Source of the DNA: Alitta virens
Lineage: Eukaryota > Annelida > Polychaeta > Phyllodocida > Nereididae
DNA: 64,000 nucleotides
Assembly: GCA_932294295.1 (NCBI GenBank)
Contig: OW028580.1
Span: 39,589,336-39,653,335 of the forward strand
Reading direction: 5' to 3'
The position numbers and the translations under genes were made by a program. How positions within the stretch are numbered: position 1 is the first letter of the stretch; every line of letters starts with the position of its first letter. This document shows positions 32,054 to 64,000 of the stretch, piece by piece. The notes below the pieces were generated by a model. The model searched no databases. It saw only the letters and a program-made list of their open reading frames with translations, and was not told where the DNA came from.

Positions 32054-32162
32054 ATACCACTTAATAGTCGTATGTTAAACTGCTGAGGACAATAGTTGTG
32101 AAACGTTCATCCCAAATTGCAAGATAATCAAGGTATTGATCTTATCAGACATAAAATCCACA

Positions 32163-34333
32163 ATGACTGGATTCATTGATATCAAATCCACCATACCTGG
32201 ATTTATTGACAACAATGCCACAGTGGCTGGTTTGGTTGATAACACCACATTGAACTACACAGGAGGTCAGTTTGCACCCGATGTACCAAGTGCCATCCAA
32301 CTTGTCGTGGTGTTCACCGTCAGCTTGGGAGCATTTCTTTTAAACTTCACCGTCTTCTACACTTTACCTCACTTACAAGGAAAGATCAACAGCTCCACGA
32401 GGTATGCCATGTTAAACCTTGCCATCACAGATGCTTTACTCGGCTGCGGATGTTTCGTCGGTCGGATAGTTTACCTCATTGACCCTGAAGTATTTCTTAA
32501 TAACCTATGCTTTGTGGATGGGTTGTTTAACCCATTACTCGCAATCATGAGTGCATTTGGACTTGTATTTTTGAATCTGGATAAATTTCTATCGTTAAAA
32601 TACCCTCTGCGATACAAAGTATGGATGACACGCAGGAAGACGATAGGAACCTTGATTGGAATTTGGGTATCCTTCTTGGTGCTCTATGGATTCGCCTTGG
32701 GAAGAGGACATTTAAAAGTGCGCTACATCGAAAACACATTCCTGTGCTTCGTTTACTATCCTTCCAAGAGTACGTCAAGCTTAGTAGCAATAATCATTCG
32801 TTTCATACTTCTTCAAGCAATGCCATTCTGCATCTGCGTGGTGTCCATAATTGGGATGTACCGCATCTTGAAAAGACATAAGGACCAGGCCAAAGAGTTG
32901 AAGGTAAAGAATAAAGATTCATTCACTTTGAAGAAAAAGTTAACTTTCAAAACGACACGGGTTACAAAGTTAATTTGTCAGACTATTTTAACTTGTCGTT
33001 TTACAAACAAGCCCTGTCAGGTGACAGAGAACATGTGGTTGCTGTGGTCTGCATGTGGTTGCTGTGGTCTGGTGGAACTGAGCAGATCCTGCTGAAATCA
33101 CTGCTTAATTCACTCCACCCAGGTGTGAATTTATACTTGGCTATATTGGAGTGATGGTAATTGTAGAGTGCACCACCTAAATGGCGCCTTAACTGCTGAT
33201 TGGGCATATACTCCCCAGAGAGTTGAGAAAGTCTCAATAAAATGCTTGCCAAGGATGTAAATTGTGATGTTGGCAAGGTCGATAAAAGTTTATATATTTC
33301 GATATGGCAGATAAAAATATAAATGTAAATGGAGTTTATAGTCATAGTTATCACCATCCAAACAGACAGACAGACAGAAAGTATTTATTTTGACCACAAA
33401 CTTACAATTTACAAAAACAAAAATAATCAAGGAAAACTGGTTATATTATGGTCATAGGAGACATTCACTAAGGCCAAAAGCCGCTGACGTGCATGCCAGC
33501 TATGAGCCATTTGGTGTTATAATATATGAGTATTGGCTACAAAATCTCAACCGACTTTACAATTACACCAATCTCAACTGACTTTACAATTACACCCTTG
33601 GCAGGCCTGTTCAAGTTTGGGCTTTCTTAACTCCCTGCAACCTTTCGATTTGAAGGCGAGCACCTTAACCACTAGGCCACGGCACCTTAAACACCCACAC
33701 ACATTTGCACACATTCACATGTTTCATTCTGACACCAAGTATGATTATGATTTGGTGATTAAAGTTAAATTGATGTTATTTTAATTGTAAGTTGGGCTTA
33801 CTTTTGACATGTATACATGACACTGTACAATGTTGACACTTCGTGTGGAGCCATGTTCAAAATATGCAACTATTGATAATTCTTTGCCATAATTATTTGC
33901 CTAAGCCAGTTATGTATATCCAATTTACTTTTAATAGCTTGTTTTATCCATACAGGAAGGTCAACAAACAGTATCGAAGAACGACTATGCCGTTGTTTAC
34001 ACAATCTTTGCGCTTAATTTCATCTACTACGTAATGATAACGCCATTTTTTGTGTGTGTCAGCGTTTGGAAACTTGCCACCGGTTCAACCTTAGGACCTA
34101 CCGCAAACTTCATAGCAGTGTGGGTAGGTGCAGCCAATTCCGCCATAAATCCATTAATCTACATTCCTAGCATGAGGTCATACCGCAGAGAATTGAGAAG
34201 AGGATTCGGGAAGCTGTTTGTTAAAGGACATTGTAATAAACTGGATTTCATCACAAGCAGCAGTGCCAAGAATTCCCAGAATAGCAGCAATGCTTTACAG
34301 CTGTCCTCTGATTGCAGCAGTCGAAATGTTTAA
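32163..34333 (+). CDS. Class A (rhodopsin-like) G-protein-coupled receptor
   Basis: Two exons, 32163-32903 and 33956-34333, with the intron at a phase-0 donor (AAG then GTAAAG) and acceptor tacag; about 372 aa. Seven TM helices are visible: TM2 carries NLAITDALLG, TM3 follows LCFVDGLF, TM7 carries the NPxxY motif as NPLIY. Cysteines before TM3 and in the second extracellular loop (FLCFVYY) can form the usual disulfide. The DRY motif is replaced by Asp-Lys-Phe (D140-K141). The extracellular N-terminus has 10-residue repeats with NAT, NTT and NYT glycosylation sites. The first in-frame ATG was chosen; the repeat begins before it, so an upstream spliced exon is possible. The ligand cannot be inferred. 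Confidence 0.8.
33362..33692 (-). mobile_element. tRNA-derived SINE (family B) in GPCR intron
   Basis: Read on -, it starts with GGTGCCGTGGCCTAGTGGTT (A-box) near 33690, continues with a weak B-box (TCGAAAGGTTGC) and a roughly 250-bp body, and ends in a ctgt microsatellite (complement of cagacagacagacag, 33362-33377). Head, body and microsatellite tail are the standard SINE layout. Confidence 0.7.
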
Positions 34334-38259: not shown

Positions 38260-41200
38260 TTACACTCTCGTGGAATAAAAAAGTTCCTTTTTCAGGGACT
38301 TGCAAAGGGTTTTCCAGAACAAGTCTTGTAAATTAGGAACTTGTGGCCAGGTGAGGTACGTCTTATTTGTGAGAAGGTAGATCAGGCGGGGAGAAAGCAG
38401 GTCGTCATCAATGTCCTCCAACATAACTACGAGTAAGCGATCTCTCTTGTGACCTTCGGCATCCAGTCTCATGTGTGCCATGGCCAACTCAAACTGACAC
38501 CAACGGCTCATAGCAAAATCTTTCGACAGAACAAGGATGGTGCGACGACTTTCAGCGATGCTGCTTACTATGTTTTCCACAATGTCAATGCCTCCTAACC
38601 AATCACGGTGGTGTATACAGAGTTTAAATCCTTTTTCGCCCATATAAGTTTCATCAATATTGGGCAACATTTGCTCTTTTACCCATGGAAGATCTTCACT
38701 GGCATAAGCAACAAAAGCATCATATTTGTATGCAGTTTCATCTTGCATTTCCATATACCTGCCTCGACCTGCCTTCGCAAGAAACAGGGTGTACCTTATG
38801 TGCCACCGATAACGCCATAAAAGATAAAGCCCTAGCAATGCAAACATTGCAAGAATCCCTGAAACTAATGGCCACAGCATAGAAAGCCACCTTTCTTCAC
38901 AATCCAATATGTTTAGATTGACATCTAAGAGTTTCGCATTCAGAGAACCCGATCGGTCCGTACATCTCATCATATCTCTGTTCAGCATGTAGACCAAATG
39001 GGGAGTTGTAGCTGCTTGAAAAACCCATGATCCATCACAAGTGCAGACAAGTGGGTTTTGAACAAGAGAAAGAATTCTTAAATTCGGCAAATAAGTGAAA
39101 GTGCTCCAACTGACAAACATGATTAAATTTCTGTCGAGATGCAGTTCAATAAGCATTGATGCATTCCAGAAGGCGGATGGATCAATATGGGTAATATAGT
39201 TCGAAGTTGCATAAAGAATATTTAAATGACACAAAGAGCTAAACATATGCGGGACCACAGCATAAATTTGACAGGAACTGATATCAAGAACTCTTATATC
39301 AGTTGAATTATGCCAAGGTAAACTGCTAAAACAATGGTTTAACTTGCAATCTGGAGGATGCACATTCATCAATAACAATCCAGAAAAATTCAAAGTCTGT
39401 GCATTTGTTGCAAAATCCGAACGTATTATCAAGTCTGGATTTTGGGACAAATCGAATTCTAAACCAATTAAGTATTTCAGATTCCCAACCATTCCTATCA
39501 AATAATTGGAGTTAACAGAAAGATACTGTAATGAAGATGGGTAGTCTGAGGAATATAGCAGAGTCATTTTATTTTGAGAGAGGTCAACTGTCCTCAAAGT
39601 TGATATATTTATTTTGTTAATAAACGGGAGTCTATTCTGTCTCAGGTATAGCTCAGTCAGCGCACTGTTTACCAGTCCATTTTGTTCTCCATTAAACTTT
39701 TCCAAGCTATTGCCATTCAAATTCAAAATTTTCAAACTAACTAAAGCTTGAAAAGCATTAGAACCAAGTGTGAGGATGTTATTGTTATTCAAATGTAATT
39801 TTTTTAAGTTTGTCATATGGCAAAAAGTATGTGAACGAATGTCACGAAGTTGATTATGTTGTAGGTCTAGATTCTGCAGGTCTGGAATACCTTCAAAATC
39901 TGTAGGACTGAGGCTTTTAAGTTGGTTACGTGATAAATCCAATTCTTGTAAACTCTGAAGACCAAGGAAAACTTGTGAACTTATGTTATTCAGTTTGTTA
40001 CCAGACAAAGACAATAAGGTAAGTTTTACCAGACCATCAAATGCGTTAGGGCTTATTTGGTCAATGTAGTTGTTACTTAAATCTAAGTTTTTCAGTTCTT
40101 GCAGACCATTGAATGAATTAGAGAAAATACTTGGGAAATCATCGTTAGCCAAATTCAAACTAATTAAATTTGTCAAGCCATAAAAACTGTTTGGAGTAAG
40201 CTGTATAAGTGAACTACTGGACATATCAAGAATTTCCAAGCTGGTTAAAGTATCAAATGTGCCAGGCAGAATTGTATCAACTTCACTCTCTGATAAATAT
40301 AAAGTTTGTAAGTGATTAAGCTGCAGGTTCTGTAATGATTTTAACATGGAACTTGATGCGCCAATGACAGTCATATCCAAATTGGTTAAAACAGGGCAAT
40401 CCAAAAGGCTCAACAATCTTAATATAACTTCCTCTTCCATAATAGTATAATACAGATTCAGGATTTTTAAATTCAGCAAGTGATAGGTAGTATTCCTGCC
40501 AAGGTTAATCAGTTCAGTTTCTGATAAATCAAGTTCTTCAAGGCTCTTCAGATTAGCTAACCAACCACTTGCCATATTGATGGAACATCCTGACAAGTTT
40601 AACTTCTTCAAGTTTGTCATATTTCTGAAAGTGGATGTCGCTATATGATCGATGTAGTTGAAAGACAAGTCGAGAGTCTGAACCCTGAATCCTGTGAATG
40701 TACCGCTATCAATTGATGATATGCTGCAGTATGATAATGAGATATAACCAGTTACATTCTTCAGGGGTTGCAGAACCAGGCTAGTAGGTCCAGAAATGAT
40801 GTTGCTATTCAGGTCAACATGAGATAGATTCTTCAATGAACCCAAGCAAGTCAAATTTCCAGGTTTTATGATTCCATTTGCACTCAGGTCAATAGTGTCC
40901 AGTCTTTTCAATGTACACAGTGTAGCAAGGGCAACCTCATATCCATTTGCACTGATAGAAATGGTTTTCAGGTACAGAACAGGGCGAAAACTTTCGCTGG
41001 ACAGATGTCGAATATCATTTTCATCCATTGCCAGTGATTGGAGTCTAGGCATGCAGCTGAAGGCATTGTGTGCAATTGATCTGATGTTATTCCAATAAAC
41101 ATTAAGATCAGTGACCTCACTGTAGTCATTGCAGGAGTTTGGTCTTTTCAGTGTTCCAAAGTTCCCCATGGCAATTTCGACATTTTCCGTCCCTTCAGGT

Positions 41201-41355
41201 AGGTGAGGGAGTTCATTCCAATAGCCATCTGGACATTCGACTGAATTTTGCTCCATTTTACAATTGCATCCCACAGGACATTTGCTTCTAATGATGGCTG
41301 CTACCGAAGTGATGTAATAAAACAGAAGCACCCAATTTAATCGTAAAAAATACAT
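38260..41355 (-). CDS. Toll-like receptor, single cysteine cluster, intronless
   Basis: About 1031 aa in one exon. The ATG at 41355 is chosen because it starts directly before a signal peptide (MYFLRLNWVLLFYYITSVAA). Then come an N-terminal Cys cap (CPVGCNCKM) and more than twenty LRRs with LxxLxLxxN signatures. One C-terminal LRR cap follows (NPLVCTCDGSWVF with later Cys pair), then a TM helix at about residues 826-848 and a TIR domain at about 878-1025 (YDAFVAYASED, box 2 RDWLGG, final FW). A single CxC cap places it with vertebrate-like (V-type) TLRs. It would sense microbial ligands at the membrane and signal through TIR adaptors. The BB-loop proline is Gly. AATAAA on - lies at 38064-38059. 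Confidence 0.93.
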   Translation of the reverse strand: MYFLRLNWVLLFYYITSVAAIIRSKCPVGCNCKMEQNSVECPDGYWNELPHLPEGTENVEIAMGNFGTLKRPNSCNDYSEVTDLNVYWNNIRSIAHNAFSCMPRLQSLAMDENDIRHLSSESFRPVLYLKTISISANGYEVALATLCTLKRLDTIDLSANGIIKPGNLTCLGSLKNLSHVDLNSNIISGPTSLVLQPLKNVTGYISLSYCSISSIDSGTFTGFRVQTLDLSFNYIDHIATSTFRNMTNLKKLNLSGCSINMASGWLANLKSLEELDLSETELINLGRNTTYHLLNLKILNLYYTIMEEEVILRLLSLLDCPVLTNLDMTVIGASSSMLKSLQNLQLNHLQTLYLSESEVDTILPGTFDTLTSLEILDMSSSSLIQLTPNSFYGLTNLISLNLANDDFPSIFSNSFNGLQELKNLDLSNNYIDQISPNAFDGLVKLTLLSLSGNKLNNISSQVFLGLQSLQELDLSRNQLKSLSPTDFEGIPDLQNLDLQHNQLRDIRSHTFCHMTNLKKLHLNNNNILTLGSNAFQALVSLKILNLNGNSLEKFNGEQNGLVNSALTELYLRQNRLPFINKINISTLRTVDLSQNKMTLLYSSDYPSSLQYLSVNSNYLIGMVGNLKYLIGLEFDLSQNPDLIIRSDFATNAQTLNFSGLLLMNVHPPDCKLNHCFSSLPWHNSTDIRVLDISSCQIYAVVPHMFSSLCHLNILYATSNYITHIDPSAFWNASMLIELHLDRNLIMFVSWSTFTYLPNLRILSLVQNPLVCTCDGSWVFQAATTPHLVYMLNRDMMRCTDRSGSLNAKLLDVNLNILDCEERWLSMLWPLVSGILAMFALLGLYLLWRYRWHIRYTLFLAKAGRGRYMEMQDETAYKYDAFVAYASEDLPWVKEQMLPNIDETYMGEKGFKLCIHHRDWLGGIDIVENIVSSIAESRRTILVLSKDFAMSRWCQFELAMAHMRLDAEGHKRDRLLVVMLEDIDDDLLSPRLIYLLTNKTYLTWPQVPNLQDLFWKTLCKSLKKELFYSTRV

Positions 41356-42385
41356 ATTCCTAATGCGCAAGTGTAGCCTCACTGTTCAACTTATTTGCAG
41401 TAAACTGCCAAAGCCAAAGGAACAGACATATATATTGTAATAAATGTTCACTAATGTTTCATTACAAGTTTCAAAAGTTGAATACATGTATTACATGAGA
41501 TTCCAATTAAAGTTTTTTTCTTATTTTTATCTATGTCCTGCTCAGTTTCCTTGTTCAAGCAATAAAAATTAAAATAGATCTGTTCCAAAAGTCATGCTAA
41601 CTAAACCATAATAATAATATATACATATAATAATTTTGATTTTACATTGAAACTCTACATAAGACCACTCAATATCAGATCCATCCGGATTTTATCATTT
41701 CGTTTGGGTTACATCATTTTAATAACAATGTAAAAAAATCAATTTGAGATGATCTGGATATTAGGAAGATTTAAGTGATTCTCAATTTAAATAACTAGTC
41801 TCATATTTCACCCACTTATTACTTGCAGGTTCATAAAACACATCACGTAGCATACTGTGTACCTGGTGATGCTGAGAAATTAATACACCTATCTTAGAAT
41901 ATCTTTTCCAACAGTTGACTTAATTTAAGGGTTCCACTGTACTATTCCATTAATATTAATGGAAAAACCAGTAATTTGCAGAATGTTTAATTAAAGATTC
42001 ATTACAAACCAGGAAGGATGTGGTGCACACCTGTTTCCAAAAATATAGAAAGTTCTATGTCCACAACATCCTTCAAATCAGACTGTTAAATGAAAACAAG
42101 TATCACATCCCCTTATTGAATGTTTTCCATTAAATATATTTTTGTAAAACTTTTGACCATAATAATCCACAATTTTCAAAAGGGTGCCACTTTTTTTCAA
42201 ATACTTTATAATATCAATCCATACGTAATCAAATCGCTATAGTATGCATATTATTTTAAATGATTTAGTTATATTCTATGTATATGATGATGTTTCTTAT
42301 TTATTTTAAATATTTATAATAAGGTGACAATAGGAATACCAGTAAAAATAACAAAAAGTATATTTTGCAAAACATATATTTCAAT
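41356..42385. other. Intergenic stretch, TLR upstream region
   Basis: AT-rich. It should contain the TLR promoter, but no TATA box or other element could be assigned. Confidence 0.35.
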
Positions 42386-50070: not shown

Positions 50071-50516
50071 TGTAAAAGTCCATGTCATTAAAGACTCCAG
50101 TTTAATGGCATTGCAGTCCAAAAGTCAAAGTGACTGTCCAATGTAGACTTTCAACTGAGTCTCATCTCAGCTTGAAGCAAGTCAAGTTCTCCCAGTTCCA
50201 AAGTGGGTAGAGTCCAAGTGCAGTAAGCACAATATATGCAGAGTCCAAAGTGTACAAGTAATAACACAAGAGTGGTTTTGCTTCCTCAGCTGGCAAGATG
50301 AAACTGATATTTTTATTGTGCACAGGGTATATGTATTAAAGGTACAATTCATGCAGTTTCCCCCCAGCAGGGCTGAGAGGGAATTATCAACCAATCACAA
50401 CACAGTAAATTCCACATTCCATGGGGTGATACCTCCCCCAAACAGGGTTGCTACCAGCATCTTTCACCGACAGGGGGCGTTTTTCAGTGGGCATGTTGAA
50501 ATTTGCTCCTCCAATT
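50071..50516 (-). repeat. 3' LTR of Gypsy element, distal (U5-side) part
   Basis: Starts TGTAAAAGTCC. 50071-50271 matches 63800-64000 at all but two of 201 positions (a C/T near 50191 and an A/G near 50249). On the minus strand the LTR ends here in CTTTTACA. AATAAA on - lies at 50317-50312. The rest of this LTR continues beyond the inserted LINE at 56631-57670. Confidence 0.85.
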
Positions 50517-50807
50517 AGTGGATTTTTTCACTATTTCTGGATAAGTTAATATATTGAGTTTTATATCAAAATGAACATCTTGGATTACAGAAACGGTTGA
50601 AGTGTATCATTTATTAACTGTTCATTACATTTTTATGGATTGAAACAATACTTTACTCAATGCAAATTTCAATGCTAAACTTGATGACATGTACCACGTG
50701 TATTGTATGAAGCTGTTGTCTAGGATATGACTGTGAAAAATATTAGAAGCTGTTGTTACAGGCTAACCATAGCATGACAAACTGTTGCAATCTGATTCAC
50801 TTATTGA

Positions 50808-52175
50808 ATGTCACAGGTAAATATTAACATGAACTCTGACATAATTAAAGAGCAACATTTGACAACTCCTATATCCAAGGATCTTGGTGAAAGAAAAAGA
50901 CAATTGTCAGATGGATCTGAACCTACAGGTGTTTCTCCTGAAATGAAAAAACTTATAATGAGTAAAGGTACAAGATTGATTATGCCAAGTGATGATGCTA
51001 CTGAACTTGAGTGGAACAAGACCATTTTCATGAAAATAGATGAAATGTTTGACAATTTAGAAGAGTTAAAAAGAGGTCTTGAATATAGCAACAAAGAACT
51101 GTCCGATTGTAAAGGAGAAGTATCTGATATGAAAAGAGAAGTTGCTGACTTGAAAGCAGAGGTGACCTTGTTAAAATGTGACAAAGAAAATTTGAAAGCT
51201 CAGTGTCATTTACTTACTGAAAGCCAAGTAAAGTTTGAAACACAAATGAGAGAACAGAATCTGATCTTCGATGGAATCAGTGAAACTTATGGGGAACACC
51301 CTGGTCTTCTACTTAAGAAAATTGTATCTGTTCTCGATCATATGATGGTTTTTGGAAGAAATGGGTCTAAAGTGCCTTTTAGTAAGATACAGAGATTTGG
51401 ACCCTATATCAGAGGATGCAATCGACCAATTCTTTGTCATTTTGCCCGATATTGTGATGTTGAAATACTCATAAGAAATCGTAGTCAATTGCCTGAAAAT
51501 GTGTATGTTCGAGAAGACTTCCCAACCCAAATTGAAGACAGACGGCGAATCTTGAGACCTATCTTCAATAAAGCCAAGAAAACTGATGAATTCAAGGGTA
51601 GATGTAGACTTGCCTACGACAAGTTGATTCTTGATGGGAAAGCATTTACTGTGAATAATTTGCATAAATTACCCAAGAAACTGCAACCCAGATCAACAGC
51701 TGAAAGACACTGTGAAGATGCAGTTGTATTCTTCACTCAAGGATCACCCTTTAGCAATTTTTATGCTGCCTCGTTTGTGAAAGACCGAATAACCTATGTG
51801 AACAATGAACAATACATCCAAGCAAAAAAAGCTGAACTCTTCAACGATGATGAAACTCATCGGAAAATTATGCAAAGTACAAACCCTTATGAAATAAAGG
51901 GACTAGGTAGTAGGGTCAAAAATTTTGTGAAACAACAATGGGAAGATCAGGCTCGAAAGGTAGCATCAGATGCATGTCTTGCCAAATTTGCACAAAATGC
52001 TGATCTTAGAGACAACTTGTTGGAAACTGGAGATAAGACCATTGGAGAGGCATCTAAAGATGCCTTTTGGGGGATAGGCAAAACACTGAATGATGTAAGT
52101 GTATTTGACAAGGACAATTGGATGAACAATCTGTTGGGAAATGTCCTTATGGCAGTCAGAGATCAACTGAAGTAA
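50808..52175 (+). CDS. LINE ORF1 protein with C-terminal NADAR/YbiA domain
   Basis: 455 aa from the ATG at 50808. Residues 75-150 form a heptad coiled coil (EVADLKAEVTLL). 151-225 resemble the L1 ORF1p RRM (IQRFGPYI, RPILCHFARYCDVEILIRN), and 226-285 its C-terminal domain (VREDFPTQIEDRRRILRPIF, AYDKLILDGKAF). These parts trimerise and bind element RNA in L1. 305-455 is a NADAR/YbiA domain: SPFSNF (313-318), NEQYIQAKKAELF (about 333-345), WE (378-379), QNADLRDNLLETG, EASKDAFWGIG (D418, W421), LLGNVLMAVRDQL. The domain is intact with its characteristic motifs. NADAR proteins are N-glycosidases linked to riboflavin intermediates and to removing ADP-ribose from guanine; the substrate here is unknown. 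The coiled coil and RRM are certain in outline; the NADAR call rests on motif order and spacing. Confidence 0.85.
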   Translation: MSQVNINMNSDIIKEQHLTTPISKDLGERKRQLSDGSEPTGVSPEMKKLIMSKGTRLIMPSDDATELEWNKTIFMKIDEMFDNLEELKRGLEYSNKELSDCKGEVSDMKREVADLKAEVTLLKCDKENLKAQCHLLTESQVKFETQMREQNLIFDGISETYGEHPGLLLKKIVSVLDHMMVFGRNGSKVPFSKIQRFGPYIRGCNRPILCHFARYCDVEILIRNRSQLPENVYVREDFPTQIEDRRRILRPIFNKAKKTDEFKGRCRLAYDKLILDGKAFTVNNLHKLPKKLQPRSTAERHCEDAVVFFTQGSPFSNFYAASFVKDRITYVNNEQYIQAKKAELFNDDETHRKIMQSTNPYEIKGLGSRVKNFVKQQWEDQARKVASDACLAKFAQNADLRDNLLETGDKTIGEASKDAFWGIGKTLNDVSVFDKDNWMNNLLGNVLMAVRDQLK

Positions 52176-52284
52176 TAATACACAAGGTACATGTATTGAT
52201 GTGTGTCTTGTGGTACTGACAAATCTATTATGTATTATACATGTCAATCTACATTCTATATTGTTATGTATCAAAGGGTAATGG

Positions 52285-52712
52285 TGTGCGACGGGATCGG
52301 TTCCTCTGATTGAAGACTCGACAATCATTGTTAAATTAAAATGTTTTATTATCATTAAACAAATATATTTTAATATTGTCAATTAATATAGTCACGAAAC
52401 GCAATATAGCAGTGCACAACAGTTCTCAGTATTAATGAATCTTATGAAATAACAATTGAGTAAACATACCTTTTATCTCTCTTGACATTTGAGAGATATT
52501 CTAAGTCATATCTTATGCCAGTCTGCACAACACTTCTGCTTACAAGTCTGCTGGTGGCCACTGTCTGGCCTGCCTATTCTATTTACACACTATTAAGGCC
52601 TCATGACACACTGGCCTGCATCAAGTCACATGCTTAGCTGTAATTTCTATTAATAACCATTACATCAGAAAGCAGTGATTACAGCCATCACTAAACATAG
52701 TATCATAACACA
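52285..52712 (-). mobile_element. Probable solo LTR inside the LINE spacer
   Basis: 428 bp bounded by TGTGCGAC and ATAACACA on + (TGT...ACA ends), flanked by aatgg and aatgc, a 5-bp site duplication with one mismatch. On - it would start TGTGTTATGATACT. No coding sequence. Not similar to the Gypsy LTR here, so a different family. Confidence 0.55.
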
Positions 52713-53241
52713 AATGCTAAAGATAGACATTATGACAGGTGGATAGAATAGAAAATTCCTTGAATATAATGTTCAATTCATTTGAGACAACCCAAAATAA
52801 CTTATCCAGCCCACAAATTGCAAACTACATGCCCATAAGTTTGCATAATCCTTGTTTTATGCTAAATTTCTTTGATTATAGTTTTTGTATATTTGCAGTT
52901 GATGAATCAAATTACAACAATCATTTGCATAATATAAGGTGCATAGTGTTCAATCAGTTTTTGAAAAAAATCTCAAAACGTCAGTCTGATTCATTATTTT
53001 CTACTGCAACTTGATTGGAAGGTGTCCATGTTGCAACGATTGTTTGTATTTTACAAATTGATGTTTGAAACATTAACTATTCATTGCTGTATTATTGAAT
53101 TATCACAGTTATATGGTTATATTGACATGTTATATGTTTCATTGTTTGGTTGTTTTAGCACAGTTATTATTTCATGTAGCTATTTGTATGATGATAGCAT
53201 GTATTTAAATCAGTGCTGACCAAATTAACCTTTTTATTGAT

Positions 53242-56235
53242 ATGATGAACTCAATACAGAACATTCAAAATCTAGATTTTTTAGATATGGTAGAACTTGA
53301 TAACGCAATGTTCACTGAGTGTACATACCCTGATTTAAGTGAGAATTGTATACAACATGAATTGACAGACACTCTTAAAGTGTGTCATATAAATATTCAT
53401 AGCATCCCCAACAAATATGAAGATTTAATTGATATACTAGATGCTATGCAAGAAAGACTAATATTACCTGATATAATGCTTATATGTGAAACCTTTCTAA
53501 ATGAAAGAAATTATGATAAATTTTCTTTCCAAAATTATGATATTGTTAGTGAGTACAGAAAACAGAAATCAAGAGGTGGAGTTTCAATAATGATCCGTAC
53601 ACAGATAAGGTATATACTGAGAACAGATTTGAGAATATTTGAAGAAGGTAAATTTGAGTCATTATTCATTGAAATACCAAGAAAGTCTGGAGCTAATATC
53701 ATAATTGGGGAAGTATACAGAGTCCCTGGAACGAATGAAGTAGATTTTATAAATTGCTACGAATCCATAATCAGTAAAATTAGAGATGAACGCAAAAAGA
53801 TCATTATTGGAACCGACCAAAATATGGATCTTCTGAGAATTAATTCACACAGAAATACACAGAAATTTTTTGAATTGAATCTGACTAATAATCTATTACC
53901 AACCATATTTAAACCAACGCGTGTGACAAATAACACTGCCACCCTGATTGATAACATTTATGTTGACACTGAAATAGGGTGTAATATCTCATCTCATATA
54001 ATAACTACTGACATTTCAGATCACTTTCTATGTCTCACAATCATTCATGACCTTACATTGAATAGTGATAAGATTCAGTACACAAGAAGAAAATTTAATG
54101 ATTCTGTGTTACGCAATATAAAGGGTGCACTATTATATAAGGATTGGAATTACCTGAATGCAATGACTATTAATGATGCATGCTCTGCCCTAAATGCAGA
54201 AATAAGTAAAGCCATCGATTTCTATGCCCCCTTGAAAACATCCACAAACAATAGAAAATACAAGAAAAGAGATCCATGGTTTACTATCGGACTGAAAACT
54301 TCTTCCATCAAAAGCTGGAAAATGTATAAGAAAGTATTACATAAGCCACATGATAGTGAAGAATATATTGCTTATAAAAGATACAGAAACATGTATAGTA
54401 GGATAAGGAGGAAGGCAAAATTTCAATATAATTATGATCTTATTTCAGCTTGTAGAAATGACTCCAAGAAAATATGGGAAATTTTAAACAGAGTAACAGG
54501 GAAGGTTAGAAAGAAAAATAATCTGAGTGAAGAAATCATAGTAGATGGAATAAAAGAAAGTAATCAGAAGACAATCAGCAATGCATTTGCAAAATATTAT
54601 AGTGAAATTGGGAAATGTATGTCCGAAAATATAGAGCAGCAAGGCCCCACATTTGATCCAACCTCAAACATTACAAGTAGAGTGAATGAAAGCTGTTTTT
54701 TCTTTCCAACTTCACATCATGAGATTGAGCATTTGATAAAGGGTTTGAAATCCAAAAGTAGTAAAGGTCATGATGAATTATCGAATACTATACTGAAGGC
54801 AATGTATCCCAGTATACTACATGCACTTTTCATAATCTTTAACAAGTCATTAAGTACAGGTATAGTTCCTGACTACATGAAATTGGCTATTGTTAAACCT
54901 CTTTATAAAGCTAAAAGTGTTTTTGAAATTAATAACTACAGACCGATCTCAATGCTTCCAGTTCTGTCAAAAATTTTAGAAAAAATTGTACACCTTCATC
55001 TTACTAAATTTTTAAAGAAACATGATGTATTATATGAAGATCAGTATGGATTTAGGAAACTTAGAAGTACCACAGATGCAATAGTAGATTTAACAGGAAA
55101 TATCATTGATGGTTTAAACAAAAAAATGTACACAATAGGATTATTTTTAGATATGTCAAAGGCCTTTGACAGTATAAAACATGAGACACTGTTAAAAAAG
55201 ATGGAACTATATGGAATTAGAGGAATAGCATTAAAATGGCTAAAATGTTATTTAACGAATCGAAGTATTAAAGTAATGTTTAAAGAGTCATTGTCAGAAA
55301 AATATGAAGTCAAGTTTGGAACACCACAAGGCTCTGTCTTAGGCCCATTGATGTATAATATTCTTTCAAATGACATGCCAAAGTGTTTGAAATTTAGTAG
55401 AGCAGTCATGTTCGCAGATGACACAACTATATATGCAACTGGAAGAAATGTTAGGTTTTTATACAGAAAAATTAATGAAGATCTAAAAAAAATAACACAA
55501 TGGTTTAAAGATAATTCACTTTCACTGAATATTGAGAAAACAAGTTATATATTATTTAAGAACATTAATAACAGGTCAAATTTCAATGGAAATTTATACA
55601 TGGATGGTAAAGCAATACAGAAAGTTAACCAGACAAAGTTCTTGGGAGTATATATTGACGAGCATTTAAACTGGAATAGTCATGTGCAAAATCTTACATT
55701 AAAATTAGCATCAGGAATCCATAGTTTAAATATGGCATGGAATATATTTTCAGTTAATACCAAAAGACTGATATATTTTTCACATGTATTCAGCCACCTT
55801 AATTATGCCTTGAGTGCCTGGGGACCCATGATATCAGCAAGCAACATGAAGAAGCTACAAGTTTCTCAAAATAAAGCTATACGATTATTATTTAACTTAA
55901 AAAGAAGAACTAGACTTGCCCCATATTATAAAAATGCTGAACTTTTAGACATTAAAAGTATAATAGAATTATCCTTGGTAAAAATATCCCACAGGTACAT
56001 GGTAAATGTTCTGCCCCAGCGAATTGTCAATTTATTTGAAAATGTCAATAATAACCATGGAACTAGAAATAGAAGTTTACCTCAGGCACTCCCACATACA
56101 ACCCAAATTTATAATAAAAGTTTTCTGGGCAGATCACCTCATCTTTGGCTGCATCTACCTAGGGATTTAAAAGATATTTCAAATATGAAGAAGTTTAATA
56201 AATGCTTTGTTATATACAAATTAAATCAACTATAG
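53242..56235 (+). CDS. LINE ORF2: APE endonuclease and reverse transcriptase
   Basis: 997 aa. Residues about 46-268 form an APE-type endonuclease: CHINIHSIPNK, LICETFL (Glu), GTDQNMDLL (in place of GDFNxDLL), TLIDNIYVD, SDHF. Residues about 500-800 form the reverse transcriptase: KPLYKAKSVFEINNYRPIS, QYGFRK, LDMSKAFDSIKHETLL, GTPQGSVLGPL and the catalytic FADD (724-727). A conserved C-terminal region follows (QTKFLGVYIDEHLNWNSHV). It nicks target DNA and copies the LINE RNA by target-primed reverse transcription. No stop or frameshift. Motifs suit the CR1/L2-like (Jockey superfamily) group; exact clade not assigned. Confidence 0.93.
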   Translation: MMNSIQNIQNLDFLDMVELDNAMFTECTYPDLSENCIQHELTDTLKVCHINIHSIPNKYEDLIDILDAMQERLILPDIMLICETFLNERNYDKFSFQNYDIVSEYRKQKSRGGVSIMIRTQIRYILRTDLRIFEEGKFESLFIEIPRKSGANIIIGEVYRVPGTNEVDFINCYESIISKIRDERKKIIIGTDQNMDLLRINSHRNTQKFFELNLTNNLLPTIFKPTRVTNNTATLIDNIYVDTEIGCNISSHIITTDISDHFLCLTIIHDLTLNSDKIQYTRRKFNDSVLRNIKGALLYKDWNYLNAMTINDACSALNAEISKAIDFYAPLKTSTNNRKYKKRDPWFTIGLKTSSIKSWKMYKKVLHKPHDSEEYIAYKRYRNMYSRIRRKAKFQYNYDLISACRNDSKKIWEILNRVTGKVRKKNNLSEEIIVDGIKESNQKTISNAFAKYYSEIGKCMSENIEQQGPTFDPTSNITSRVNESCFFFPTSHHEIEHLIKGLKSKSSKGHDELSNTILKAMYPSILHALFIIFNKSLSTGIVPDYMKLAIVKPLYKAKSVFEINNYRPISMLPVLSKILEKIVHLHLTKFLKKHDVLYEDQYGFRKLRSTTDAIVDLTGNIIDGLNKKMYTIGLFLDMSKAFDSIKHETLLKKMELYGIRGIALKWLKCYLTNRSIKVMFKESLSEKYEVKFGTPQGSVLGPLMYNILSNDMPKCLKFSRAVMFADDTTIYATGRNVRFLYRKINEDLKKITQWFKDNSLSLNIEKTSYILFKNINNRSNFNGNLYMDGKAIQKVNQTKFLGVYIDEHLNWNSHVQNLTLKLASGIHSLNMAWNIFSVNTKRLIYFSHVFSHLNYALSAWGPMISASNMKKLQVSQNKAIRLLFNLKRRTRLAPYYKNAELLDIKSIIELSLVKISHRYMVNVLPQRIVNLFENVNNNHGTRNRSLPQALPHTTQIYNKSFLGRSPHLWLHLPRDLKDISNMKKFNKCFVIYKLNQL

Positions 56236-56630
56236 GTTAGATGTAGATGCCTCACCAATTGTATTATGTTATTGATATATTATTTATTATCCATATTATT
56301 TATATTATTTGTAATCCACTTTTGTATATATATAATGACAAAGAAAATGATAATTCATTTGCAACCAGACTTTTTATTTTTATTATTTTTTTATTATTAT
56401 CATTATTTTATTTTTTCTCTTTTTTTTTTTTTTTTTTTTACATAAATATGCACTAATCTTTTGATTGTTATCACAGGAAATGCACCCCCCCTTTCGGGTA
56501 TAGTAATAAATTACTCGGGTGCATTCCTTCAACTTACTTATGGTGTAATTATTATTTATTATTATATTGTCTTCATACCATGTGTTGTACAATGTAAGTT
56601 GGAAAGAAATAAATATTATTATTATTATTT

Positions 56631-58859: not shown

Positions 58860-61800
58860 TCAGTTCTTGGCGGCGTGCTTTTGCTGCTGTGGGGGATCAT
58901 CAAGTTCACCAGTAGTGCTCAGGAATGCGGCAACTGCTGATATGGCTTCCAGCCTGGCCTTCTTCTGTTGCTCTGCGGATGGTACTGGGATCTCCGGGCC
59001 GTGTGGGCGCTTGGCAGTCCTATATAACATGGGTCGGTGGCGCTTGCTGGTGACGGGCAGATCCGGTGCATGCGGACGTCGTGGGGCAAAACGACGCAGG
59101 CGTTTCACATCCTCCTGTCTCTCATGGGCTGTGCGAGCAGAGGCTGCTGATCTCCGTGCTTCTGCCGGCTTGTGTGGGTGACTGGTAGCGTCCTTGCGTG
59201 GAACCTTATGGCTCCTGGCTTTGGCGTCATAAGCAGGGGTCACAGAGCTGTCGTCACTGGATTGGCTGCTGTGACGCTGACGTTTCACTGCTGACTTGAG
59301 AGGCGGGGGGCCACGCGACATGGTGTTGCGTGCGGGGGCTGACACCTTCTCTGGTGGTTGGTACCGCTTGATAAGTCCTGCTGCCCTGGCACCTTGTCTG
59401 GTGTTTCTGATGGGCCTCGGATTCACCTCATCCCAAAATATATTGGGATCCACCAACTTCACTTTGTTCATATTAAGGACCTTCTGCTTCCCTGATTGCT
59501 GGTGATTGAGCCATAGCACCTTGCCCCTGACTCGCGTTACTGTCCACTGTGGATCCCACTTGCTGGTAAGCGATAGTGGCTCCTGGGCTCTAATCACCAC
59601 TGTGTCTCCCACGTTAATTGTTCCTGTGTTGGCCTGCCTCTCTAGTCTGTCTCTGTTGTGATGCCGTGACTGCGTTGTGGCCTCTACTGCTGTCCTCAAG
59701 GCATCAGCTACATGCTGCAGGCGGTCGTCTAGTACACTGCCCAAGGGCAGCAAGCGAGAGATTGGCAATCGGGCTCTTCTGCCATGGTGCAAAAAGAATG
59801 GAGTGTGTCCAGTGACGTCTGACACTGCATTATTATAGGCCATGAGTGCGGGCCCTAGCTGATCCTCCCAAGTATTCCTTGCATTGTTGATGAGGCGAGA
59901 GACTATCTGCTTCAATGTTCCATTGAAACGCTCGCACTTGCCGTTGGCTTGGGGATTTTAGCTAGTGGTCTGCCGGTGGTCAATGGCCACTCCCTTGAAG
60001 TATTCCCTGATGGCTGTGGCGCCGAACTCCAGGCCCTGGTCCGTTATGACCACATCTGGATAGCCGTTACGTGGGAATACGTGCCTGGTGAATTGCTTCC
60101 ACACTTCAAAGCTGGTCTTCCTGGGTATAGGATAGGCCTCTGCCCATCCTGTGCAGTGGTCAACGACAGGTAGGATGTATTGGTTGCCAGCAGGCGTCTC
60201 CACTAGGGGGCCAATCAAATCCACCGCGATGATCTGCATGGGTGATGTGGCCAAGGGCATTTCACCCATAGGGGCCTTGGGCGCTCTCTTCGAGTGTAAA
60301 ATGCACGTGGGACACAGCGCCAGGAAGCGCTTGACATCTGTCTTCACCCTGGGCCATGCAAACGCTTCTTGCAACTTCCGCATGGTTTTGACGACCGACA
60401 TGTGTCCGACCTCCTGGTGAGTGCGCTGGATGATGGATGGTCTCTGCTGCTCTGGGATGACGAGACGCGGGTGATCGGGGGCGTACTTGTAAGGATGCTG
60501 GGTCGAGTAGAGCAGCCCATTTATGAGGTCATAGTGGCTCTTGTCATCATGGTGCTCGGTCCACTCAGTCATCTCGCGTTGTTGCTCTGCAACCAGGCGC
60601 AGGTCGAGGCCATAAACGTCAGGCACGTCGTCGTCGGCGGGCATTGGTGGGAGGGCATCTCCTATCAGCCAATAGTCTGCGTCAAAAGTATTTATCTGCT
60701 CCGTTTGACGTATCCTGGAGAGCATGTCGGCACGCACGTTGAGCTTACCCTTGTGGTACTCGACCTTACAGTTGTATTCAGCTAGTAAGACCGACCATCG
60801 CTGAATCTTAGTATTGTTCATGTCCTTTGTAAACAAGGATGTCAAGGGCTTGTGGTCTGTGAAGGTCCGGTATGTAGCCCCCCACAGATAAGGTCTCAAT
60901 TGTTTTAGTGCGTACACGACAGCATAAGCCTCCTTTTCGATGGTGGCCCAGCGTCTTTGAGTGTCAGACAGCTGCTTGGATAAATAGACGATGGGCCGCT
61001 CTACTCCCTGGTCGTCCATCTGGCACAAGATGGCGCCCACCGCGTAGTCACAAGCGTCTGTGTACAATTGATAAGGCTGGTCTGTCTGGGGGTGGGCCAT
61101 GATGCTGTCGCTGGTGAGTGCACACTTCAGCGTGTCAAACGCAAGTTGGTGGCGTCCGGACCACTCAAACTTGACGTTCTTGCGCGTGAAGTTGACGAGT
61201 GACTCAGATATTCGGAGGATGTTGACTCAGATATTATGTATGCAGGACCTGTAGTAGCCTGTCATACCCAGGAAACTGCGAGTCTCCGCCAGATTTTGGG
61301 GGGCCTGCATTCTGACGATGGCAGACACTTTGGCCAGATCTGCCCGGAGGCCATTCTCACTCACGACGTACCCCAGCAGCTTCACCTCCTTCAATCCAAA
61401 GACGCACTTTGCTGGATTGAGTCTGAGGTTGTACTGACGTAGCCTGTCAAACATGATGCGCAGATGCTCCTCGTGCTGGGCCAAGTTCTCACTGTAGACC
61501 ACAATGTCATCTATGTATAACATGCAAATGTTCCCAATAAGACCTTTGAAAACGACCTCCATTGCCCTCTGAAATAATTGGGACGCGTTACAAAGGCCCA
61601 TTGGTAGCCGTGTCCAGTGGAACAGACCCCTGTGACAGACAAAGGCGGTCTTCTCCTGGTCAGCTGGATGCAAGGGCAGCTGATGGAATCCAGACTTGAG
61701 GTCCAGTGTCGAAAAAATGGTGGCCCCCTGCAATTGATCGAAAATGTCTCTTATCAGTGGGATTGGATATGCATCCTTCTTAGTTATGTTGTTCAGGCCA

Positions 61801-62621
61801 GTGTAATCCACGCAGAAGCGAGGTCCTTCAGTGTTGTCCTTCTTTTCGACTAGGACCACGGGCAAGGCCTATGGCGAAGCTGAGGGGACTATGACGCCTT
61901 GGCACAGCAGTTCTTCCAGTTTGGAGTCCAAAGCATCCCGTTTCTTCAGGGGCAAATGGTAAGGACGCCGTTTGATGGGCCGTCCCTCGGTATGGATGCG
62001 GACCAGGATGTCTGGGTGGCATCCTAAATCTTCACCTCTCGCAGCAAACAGCTCCTCATGGTCGGCCACGCACCGGCTGATGCGTGAGTCCTCGATGACT
62101 GGTGGGCGGTCCCCCAGGGATTCCAGCATGCCCCTGTGGCGAGCCGGCAGCAGGGGCAGAGAGGTGCCCCTCCAGGTCAGAGTGCCCGCATTATAATTGA
62201 TGCTGGCCTGCTCGCGAGTGAGCACATCGCGTCCCAAAATCAACTGATTGCCAATATCCTCTACCACAATGACAGGTATAGTGCCAATAGTGTCCACTGT
62301 CAGTTCTGTTGCACCCAACACAGTAATTCCATGGCCTGTCACCCCACAAAGTTCTATTGTCTGCGGCAGCAGGGGGGAGCGGCCAGTTTTCTTGCACAGA
62401 ATTTCGAACTCTTGGCGCCGCAACACAGTGCGGGAGGCGCCGGTGTCGACGAGCGCTATCAATATGTATCCATACATCACAAGTTCCACATATTTCAGCT
62501 CGTCGACCGTTGCGGCGCCTATTGGCCCCCCTGGGGGTGTGCATCTCCTCGTCTCTCTCCTCGCTGCTAGCCAGCCCATCTGGTGCGGCAGTGGCGCTGT
62601 ACGTGGCCGGCACGTCGACAA
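58860..62621 (-). pseudogene. pol: Gypsy pol: protease, RT, RNase H, integrase; three in-frame stops
   Basis: One frame from about 62621 to 58860, in the -1 frame relative to gag and overlapping it. In order: aspartic protease (ALVDTGAS); reverse transcriptase (FSTLDLKSGFHQLPL, RLPMGLCNA, catalytic LYIDDI); RNase H (YTDACDYAVGA, TDHKPL); integrase with HHCC zinc site (HQEVGH...CPTC) and DDE core (AVDLIG, ITDQGLEF, CERFNG); and a C-terminal chromatin-side domain. The frame is never shifted but has TAG at 61869-61871 (just before the RT), TGA at 61227-61229 (after RT, in a 12-bp local duplication) and TAA at 59958-59960 (in the integrase core). This copy therefore cannot make full-length Pol. 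Metaviridae by domain order. Confidence 0.92.
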
Positions 62622-63622
62622 AAGTTGCAGATCGGGGCTCCGTCGTCTGTGTAGGCAAAGTCTGCCTCGTCGGCTGGAGCAGCGTGCTGTGGGGCAGGCG
62701 CTGCTAGGCGAGCTCCAAGGGCGGGCTGACTGGTTTTGGTGTCCTTCATGGCGGCCATCAGCTTCGTAAATTGCTGGGTCATGCCACAGACCTGTCTGCG
62801 GACCTCCGCCATATCCTTGGCTAGCTCCTCGGTCGTGGGCTTAGCCACGGCCACAGCAGCGACCTCCATTGGCTCCTCGTCCCTCACAACTTCATCATCC
62901 AGAGCCATACGCAGACGGTACTCGTCGGCTTCATACCCTGACACCAATTGCAAGGCATCTGCAAAGTTGCCAGGTCGTCCGTCCTTGACGAGTCGTTCCA
63001 CCACATGCCGGTCTCTCAATCCACGCATGTAAGATTTCAGCAGCAGGCGCGTCTGGTCAGCCTTTCGTGGAGGGGCCGCCCTACCACGCCCTGCGGCAGC
63101 CAGGGGGTATGCCAGGTCTGCCATTTCGCGAAATCGCCTTCCATACGAAGCGGACGTCTCGTAGGCCCCTTGTTTGGTCTTCTCCATCTCATGGCGGAGG
63201 CGGTCGTCCTCGTGAGGCTGCAGGAACGCCGCCTGCAAGTGCGTGCGGAGGGTGGGCCAATCAGCGGTGTTTCTGTCCGGCAGCCGGTCGAGATAATGCT
63301 CTAACTCTCTTCTTAGTGCCTCTTGTGCTGAGTGTGCCGCGATGTAGACGGTGAACTCAGAGTACGGGATTGTCAAGTCCACTTCCTTCAGCCAGTCTCT
63401 GATCCCACCTGGGTTGGCACCGTCGCAGTGCGGGACCCGGCGGGCGAGATTGTCGGCCGTCAGCCGGTCACTGTTAAACTGACGACGTTTCTCCCTGTCG
63501 AACTCTGCTCTTCTGTCTGCCGCCCTGTTCTCTGCTCCTTCATCGCGGAGTTGCTGGAAGAATTCGGCGAACTGTTGTACGTAACCGGGAGCGGGAGCAG
63601 GAGCAGGAGTGGGTAGAACCAT
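62567..63622 (-). CDS. gag: Gypsy Gag with CCHC zinc knuckle
   Basis: 351 aa from the ATG at 63622. An Ala/Pro-rich N-terminus is followed by a capsid-like helical region (WPTLRTHLQAAFLQP, KTKQGAYETSASYGRRFREM, the retrotransposon-gag core) and a CCHC knuckle near the C-terminus (CNFCRRAGHVQRHC) for RNA packaging. The frame is intact and overlaps pol by about 55 nt, with pol in the -1 frame. I see no canonical slippery heptamer in the overlap, so the gag-pol expression mechanism is open. GC content is higher than in the host flanks. Confidence 0.9.
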   Translation of the reverse strand: MVLPTPAPAPAPGYVQQFAEFFQQLRDEGAENRAADRRAEFDREKRRQFNSDRLTADNLARRVPHCDGANPGGIRDWLKEVDLTIPYSEFTVYIAAHSAQEALRRELEHYLDRLPDRNTADWPTLRTHLQAAFLQPHEDDRLRHEMEKTKQGAYETSASYGRRFREMADLAYPLAAAGRGRAAPPRKADQTRLLLKSYMRGLRDRHVVERLVKDGRPGNFADALQLVSGYEADEYRLRMALDDEVVRDEEPMEVAAVAVAKPTTEELAKDMAEVRRQVCGMTQQFTKLMAAMKDTKTSQPALGARLAAPAPQHAAPADEADFAYTDDGAPICNFCRRAGHVQRHCRTRWAG

Positions 63623-63774
63623 CGTGGCGGTAGGCGTCGGGAAGCTATGAGCACTTTCCAGCTTGGAGAGTCAGATCATTAACTTAGTAGGCTGGACATT
63701 AACTTCTGCAGATGCTGCAGTCCTGAGCCAACACATTCCTGTGAGCTGTGGTCATTCTGAGGCAGCTCCTTTCA

Positions 63775-63799
63775 TCCATAATCACGTCAGGGTCACCAA
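63775..63799 (-). other. Primer-binding site region of Gypsy element
   Basis: Directly inside the 5' LTR, the minus strand reads TTGGTGACCCTGACGTGATT. A TGG start within two bases of the LTR end is the normal position for a tRNA primer-binding site. The tRNA species is not assigned. Confidence 0.6.
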
Positions 63800-64000
63800 T
63801 GTAAAAGTCCATGTCATTAAAGACTCCAGTTTAATGGCATTGCAGTCCAAAAGTCAAAGTGACTGTCCAATGTAGACTTTCAACTGAGTCTCATCTCAGC
63901 TTGAAGCAAGTCAAGTTCTTCCAGTTCCAAAGTGGGTAGAGTCCAAGTGCAGTAAGCACAATATATGCAGAGTCCAAGGTGTACAAGTAATAACACAAGA
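63800..64000 (-). repeat. 5' LTR of Gypsy element (cut by window end)
   Basis: Begins TGTAAAAGTCC on +, matching 50071-50271 with two differences in 201 bp. The remaining part lies past base 64000. Confidence 0.9.

Follow-up and report, generated by a model that had tools for sequence, protein, structure and literature searches.

An ORF1 protein fused to a NADAR domain in a LINE lineage of Alitta virens, with a possible role in guanine de-ADP-ribosylation

We describe a long interspersed nuclear element (LINE) of the polychaete Alitta virens whose first open reading frame (ORF1) encodes an RNA-coating protein and a NADAR domain in a single frame. The element lies at 50466..56629 on the plus strand of the stretch analyzed here (the window; 64,000 nucleotides of contig OW028580.1, assembly GCA_932294295.1), and its ORF1 of 455 aa at 50808..52175 (+). 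We tentatively read the product as a LINE ORF1 protein (ORF1p) that tethers a NADAR and would thereby remove guanine ADP-ribose from element nucleic acid, a reading held with slightly less than even confidence. A reading of the window from its letters alone (the sequence-only reading) had proposed a selfish de-ADP-ribosylation system directed at marks set by host enzymes of the PARP or ART type. The fold, the active site, the signs of selection, the presence in many copies and several lineages, and the linkage to ORF2 all agree with that proposal, whereas PARP-type marks fit poorly.

The domain order in the frame, coiled coil, RNA recognition motif (RRM), C-terminal domain (CTD) and NADAR, was confirmed by domain searches and by an AlphaFold2 model. 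In the model, the first 54 residues have a predicted local distance difference test score (pLDDT) below 50, and residues 66-147 (51003..51248, +) form a long helix, presumed to be the coiled coil. The L1-type RRM and the CTD follow at residues 148-299 (51249..51704, +), so that coiled coil, RRM and CTD stand in the order that defines a type II (L1-type) ORF1. The NADAR domain, of the YbiA-family Glu type, spans residues 312-455 (51741..52172, +); it matched PF08719 with 128.8 bits against a curated cut-off of 35.1 and has the YbiA-type fold of the NADAR superfamily. Alignment with the Phytophthora NADAR 8bau placed Glu43, Lys50 and Lys75 on E334, K341 and K364, Trp89 and Trp133 on W378 and W421, and the YbiA-family Glu on E414; here the 8bau chain index was taken to run two ahead of the paper numbering (chain Glu45/Lys52 versus K50 in the paper). 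The catalytic Glu and Lys thus bound the stretch EQYIQAKK (E334 to K341; 51807..51830, +), and the stretch EASKDAFWG (E414 to G422; 52047..52073, +) holds the YbiA-family Glu and W421. The alignment of E414 to YbiA and 8bau has one gap before the next Asp. The YbiA family is set apart by a last-strand Glu instead of Asp or His (PMC11125620), and with E414 as that Glu the window domain belongs to it. It does not have the makeup of a DarT1-NADAR antitoxin, having Glu at 414 and ORF2 as its downstream neighbor, and none of the eight window ORFs scanned had a Pfam match to DarT.

ORF2 (53242..56235, +; 997 aa) encodes an apurinic/apyrimidinic endonuclease (APE)-type endonuclease and a reverse transcriptase (RT), with Pfam matches to RVT_1 (E 1.3e-37) and, slightly below its cut-off, to Exo_endo_phos (E 4.6e-5). 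The element begins with ACCGACAGGGGG and ends in an A/T-rich segment with an (ATT)n tail (56596..56629, +); endonuclease, RT and simple 3' tail identify it as an APE-type LINE. A second copy (G000:C5:31232892) matches the window element at 99.0% over 50466-52286, 98.8% over 52738-56226 and 96.4% over 56334-56629. The 5' ends of the two copies fall on the same base while their flanks differ, and in both the (ATT)n tail gives way to unrelated flanks. This match across both frames, together with the common ends, rules out that ORF1 and ORF2 are merely separate neighbors, and the association of the fusion with ORF2 suggested by the sequence-only reading is upheld. Inspected by eye, the flanking sequence of the two copies showed no obvious target-site duplication; CR1-like elements frequently lack one. 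In the C5 copy the ORF2 frames are interrupted, the 107 bp at 56227-56333, in the 3' portion of the window element, are missing, and K341 is replaced by Asn. The window element is a young LINE copy.

The gap between the first two matching segments corresponds to a 451-bp insertion between ORF1 and ORF2 (52287..52737, strand unassigned), which has TG...CA ends and GGTG flanking it on both sides, and looks like a solo long terminal repeat. It is missing in all five other copies compared (C5:31232892, L003, L008, L017 and L019), and no second copy of it turned up elsewhere in the window or among the loci compared; judged from these sequences, it is not part of the ancestral element.

The fusion is not confined to these two copies. 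Across the genome (671 Mb in 23 contigs), the ORF1 query gave at least 93 scored matches among 600 candidates, with some copies split over several matches, and the NADAR query at least 150 scored matches among 762 candidates, 150 of 150 above the cut-off. Searching with the RRM-CTD part gave 144 matches, from which 33 weak or short ones were excluded; 9 of the 111 compared stop before position 150, leaving 102 usable relatives. In 74 of these, a NADAR match lies at most 400 bp downstream or the ORF1 alignment continues into the NADAR part. Sixteen of the remaining 28 were fetched, and all 16 carry NADAR pieces, mostly frame-shifted; L070 and L072 have the N-terminal NADAR part only. NADAR or its remains were hence present in 90 of 90 relatives checked among the 102 usable, with no NADAR-less member of the window ORF1 lineage among them. 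Among database ORF1 relatives, 35 of 37 contain PF08719, and the remaining two (P0030 and P0031) appear cut short in the alignment. Capture in a single copy, one of the outcomes that the sequence-only reading had named as fatal to its proposal, is ruled out by the relatives checked, the genome-wide copies and the database relatives together. A neutral passenger, captured by chance in one copy, is accordingly barely credible: the near-identical C5 copy without K341 speaks for it, but the domain is kept throughout the relatives and is itself conserved, as set out below.

Linkage to ORF2 recurs as well. The 30 ORF1 loci inspected represent 27 distinct places; within about 1.5 kb or less downstream of ORF1, 19 of these have a match to the window ORF2 and 8 have none, the weak ones among the 19 being L024/L025 (34% identity) and L028 (28% identity). 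For relatives elsewhere, longest contigs of 5211, 5384, 6400 and 7608 are common to the ORF1 match list (37 rows) and the ORF2 match list (119 of the 120 listed, out of 218). These four coincidences compare with a mean of 0.35 when jittered, four or more being reached in 0.06% of 5000 trials, and are circumstantial evidence of ORF1-ORF2 linkage in other organisms. In all 15 further NADAR loci fetched, LINE-type ORF parts adjoin the NADAR (partly judged by eye).

We compared conservation along the protein. Mean pairwise identity over the first 27 alignment rows was 0.59 in NADAR and 0.60 in RRM-CTD, against 0.34 in the coil and 0.38 in the N-terminus; NADAR is conserved to the same degree as the RRM. 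In the 37-row alignment, counting rows with a residue, E334, K341, K364 and W378 are each kept in 34 of 35, E414 in 34 of 34 and W421 in 33 of 34, and E334, K341, W378, E414 and W421 are among the top conserved positions of the ORF1 protein. These figures bear on a structural explanation, in which the domain helps ORF1p to fold, to pack as a trimer or to bind nucleic acid, and its former enzymatic role no longer matters. The position of NADAR directly after the CTD, where added nucleic-acid affinity could help, is in keeping with such a role, but a purely structural domain would not need the conserved charged residues, and we regard this explanation as improbable.

Substitution rates across copies, the test suggested with the sequence-only reading, were partly informative. 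Between subfamilies of the window's class, the proportion of synonymous differences (pS) was 0.77-0.90, that is, mostly saturated, with NADAR non-synonymous proportions (pN) of 0.18-0.31; comparisons with or within class B (described below) gave a NADAR pN of 0.33-0.42. The only NADAR pair with a usable synonymous rate (dS 1.86) had a ratio of non-synonymous to synonymous rates (dN/dS) of 0.09, as against 0.22 for one coil pair (dS 2.3) and 0.30 for one class B RRM-CTD pair (dS 2.1). Among recent copies, dN/dS was uninformative owing to few changes and decay, ranging in usable pairs from 0.13 to 2.1 for NADAR and from 0.5 to 1.1 for RRM-CTD. Between the window copy and the C5 copy, which has lost K341, the NADAR differs by 8 non-synonymous and 1 synonymous changes; recent copies therefore drift, as dead insertions do. 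Taken together, the sequence comparisons support conservation of the window-family NADAR under selection. Since many related elements retain the domain, it probably helps these LINEs spread.

Several other LINE ORF1 architectures in the same genome also carry NADAR. Class B (L030 and L047; partial L046, L039 and L028) has an RRM-type ORF1, 413-421 aa where intact, with NADAR at the C-terminus and a different ORF2. Class A2 (L036-L038, L040 and L041) resembles class B in architecture; the ORF2 of L040 gave a weak PHD match (E 0.0016, below cut-off). In class C (L033, L034, L035 and L045; G000 C2, C6 and C14), NADAR lies mid-protein and is followed by an SGNH/GDSL-like part, which matched PF13472 below cut-off (E 0.0013) in L033 only among three scanned. 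The class C ORF2 has an endonuclease (PF03372, 3.2e-9, L033) and an RT scoring 87 bits to human L1 (L058). Separately, G000:C14:3894787-3989334 holds five same-strand NADAR matches spaced by about 21-27 kb, perhaps a local duplication array; the one fetched (L045) belongs to class C. Class D (L042-L044 and L060; G000 C2, C3 and C11) shows CX2CX3HX4C zinc-knuckle patterns ahead of NADAR (L042-L044, by eye), and is called L1/Tx1-like because the RT adjoining L043 matches human L1 at 102 bits over about 200 residues. The window ORF2 scored 69 bits over about 377 aa against human L1, the only reference compared; its RT motifs tentatively suggest the CR1/L2/Jockey superfamily.

The active site is not kept equally in all classes. 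All four sampled class C ORF1s have His at the E414 position and two (L034 and L035) have Met at the K341 position. The suggestion that retained motifs imply selection for activity thus holds for the window's family but not for class C as sampled. The two Met residues also lend something to a reader explanation, in which NADAR would act as an ADP-ribose reader or adaptor that guides the ribonucleoprotein (RNP) to ADP-ribosylated DNA nicks or proteins where the element inserts, or keeps it there, catalysis being largely dispensable. In line with this explanation, human L1 insertion is promoted by PARP1/PARP2 and by PARylation at the nick (PMC8535693). Nevertheless, the catalytic Lys is nearly invariant in the window's family and the literature consulted describes NADARs as hydrolases rather than readers, and we consider a reader role quite unlikely.

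In a tree of 58 NADARs, class C was placed beside YbiA and NADARs of phages (98/96), whereas the rest fell with NADARs from other bacteria and phages (98/96). Twelve near-duplicate or partial rows of 60 were dropped from the tree input, and an earlier NADAR set had been freed of duplicates and of rows covering fewer than about 110-115 profile positions. Classes A, B, C and D each make up one side of a starred branch; A2 does so too, though its second support value is weak (94/20). The seven distant ORF1s from the database are dispersed over the tree. The approximately unbiased (AU) test did not reject one clade uniting all LINE NADARs (p 0.095), nor did it reject a clade of RRM-type and class D NADARs (p 0.415), and RRM-type without class D was borderline (p 0.056). 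The tree, the active-site residue and the position of the domain favor two separate NADAR uptakes but do not prove them, because the AU test allows one LINE clade. The grouping of class D with RRM-type LINE NADARs hints at module exchange between LINE lineages. In the phage and plasmid collections, the window NADAR was matched best, at 43% identity, by Pseudomonas phage ZQG1 and by a Deinococcus plasmid. Searching proteins with NADAR only gave 12 matches among 25 candidates, 55-72% identical and one at 43%; no cellular donor was evident in this search, which reaches only relatives with common short exact words. A viral contig scan returned 49 pattern matches, of which 0 were confirmed.

As to function, we consider the window NADAR probably catalytically active. 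Both catalytic residues have equivalents mutated in the C7 NADAR (E88 for E334 and K95 for K341), and K95 was essential (PMC11543638). NADARs reverse guanosine ADP-ribosylation in DNA (PMC11543638, PMC11125620) and were the sole hydrolase family tested that reversed it in RNA (PMC11833690). In the proposed mechanism, ORF1p would coat element RNA, and possibly cDNA and the nicked target, via RRM and CTD, and the tethered NADAR would hydrolyze ADP-ribose off guanine bases of the coated nucleic acid. Marks from a guanine-specific ADP-ribosyltransferase of host or intruder would thereby be kept from blocking reverse transcription or translation. As a substrate, guanine-ADP-ribose on the nucleic acid of the element is plausible, at rather less than even confidence, and counter-defense as the reason for the domain is doubtful.

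Several observations weigh against this reading. The ADP-ribose-contacting residues R79 and R93 of 8bau correspond to Ser368 and Ala382 in the window NADAR, and the C5 copy shows the excess of non-synonymous changes and the lost Lys given above. In vitro, E88Q inactivated the C7 NADAR, but E88A had a minor effect (PMC11543638), so that the active-site Glu alone is weak proof. Phosphate-end RNA marks were not removed by the NADARs tested (PMC11833690), nor PARP10 uracil marks by the C7 NADAR (PMC13036486), which is why PARP-type marks fit poorly; given that PARP1/2 at the nick assist human L1, wholesale removal of PARP marks would moreover bring a LINE no obvious benefit. A guanine-specific writer appears the better candidate for an opponent than PARP, and animal examples are the pierisins and clam CARP-1 (PMC11543638). 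The genome gave 0 matches to a Scabin-like family, a search in which the controls were also silent and which is hence not evidence of absence. The physiological roles of animal NADARs have been called unclear (PMC11125620).

NADAR may alternatively act on small NAD or ADP-ribose derivatives, or in processing of element RNA, and not on host marks. Riboflavin intermediates are substrates of YbiA, an N-glycosidase, and NADARs are found in settings of RNA repair (PMC9503650); nematode trans-splicing requires the NADAR protein SNA-3 (PMC9303266), and processing of the RNA intermediate is the published guess for the Ectocarpus and oyster elements discussed below (PMC12477816). Fusion to an RNA-coating protein nevertheless suggests a macromolecular target, NADARs are active on guanosine-ADP-ribose in DNA and RNA (PMC11543638, PMC11833690), and we judge this alternative unlikely.

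Extended to all classes, the guanine de-ADP-ribosylation reading would hold that several LINE lineages carry a self-encoded guanine de-ADP-ribosylase in ORF1p. It would involve at least two uptakes (the YbiA-Glu type in coiled coil-RRM and CCHC ORF1s, the His type in NADAR-SGNH ORF1s), passage between lineages, and counter-defense against guanine-specific nucleic-acid ADP-ribosylation (CARP-1/pierisin-like or other). We hold this joint reading to be rather unlikely; if true, a guanine-specific ADP-ribosylating defense would add a new arm to genome defense in animals. An enzyme kept fused to an RNA-coating protein points to the LINE RNP as the place to seek the NADAR substrate, and whether nucleic-acid ADP-ribosylation restrains retrotransposons becomes directly testable. 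For annotation, a caution follows that invertebrate genes labeled NADAR may be LINE ORF1s.

The sequence-only reading left open whether the fusion had been reported. NADAR in a LINE ORF1 is already known, because a paper on Ectocarpus (Genome Biology 2025), which describes a YbiA-family NADAR in a Gypsy lineage, also reports, in one sentence, NADAR in ORF1 of several Crassostrea gigas Tx1 LINEs (PMC12477816). The oyster elements share with ours a NADAR within ORF1, and the Ectocarpus Gypsy elements a NADAR within a retrotransposon protein. The window element differs from the oyster Tx1 LINEs in combining a type II ORF1 and a C-terminal NADAR with an RT less L1-like than that of class D. On LINEs, the accessible text of that paper offers no evidence about the active site, selection, copy surveys or the presence of several architectures. 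A search that left most subscription papers, most preprints and Repbase outside gave no published account of a fusion between NADAR and a type II ORF1, of how constant it is in a lineage, of active-site conservation in LINEs or of multiple architectures in one genome.

Human LINE-1 ORF1p is likewise of type II, but lacks NADAR and is paired with an RT of another lineage. Fold and catalytic Glu/Lys are shared with E. coli YbiA, Phytophthora 8bau and DarT1-associated NADARs; the window domain differs from these known hydrolases in its fusion to a retrotransposon RNA-binding protein, and in having Glu, not the DarT1-type Asp. Viral helicases in insect TRAS ORF2 and Jockey ORF1 offer a parallel, as LINEs there independently captured an enzyme domain whose motifs are conserved and for which an anti-silencing role has been proposed (PMC5563155); enzyme and pathway differ. 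Esterase-type LINE ORF1s also contain an enzyme domain, and ORF1 evolution is reticulate (PMC3905857, PMC4120745); the word NADAR has 0 occurrences in a survey of 448 Jockey-superfamily ORF1s (PMC4120745). Animal RNA-virus polyproteins with NADAR/Macro likewise hold a selfish ADP-ribose-processing domain with proposed counter-defense (PMC9503650), there in a virus polyprotein and here in a LINE ORF1.

Elsewhere in the window, a Gypsy-like remnant on the minus strand (58860-63622) has Retrotrans_gag, RVT_1, RNase H and integrase in several frames, and GC content climbs to 0.55 over 60001-64000. Upstream of the LINE, a 319-aa open frame at 32136-33095 encodes a rhodopsin-type G-protein-coupled receptor (7tm_1, E 5.5e-20), and a 1040-aa open frame on the minus strand at 38260-41382 encodes leucine-rich repeats and a TIR domain of the Toll-like-receptor type.
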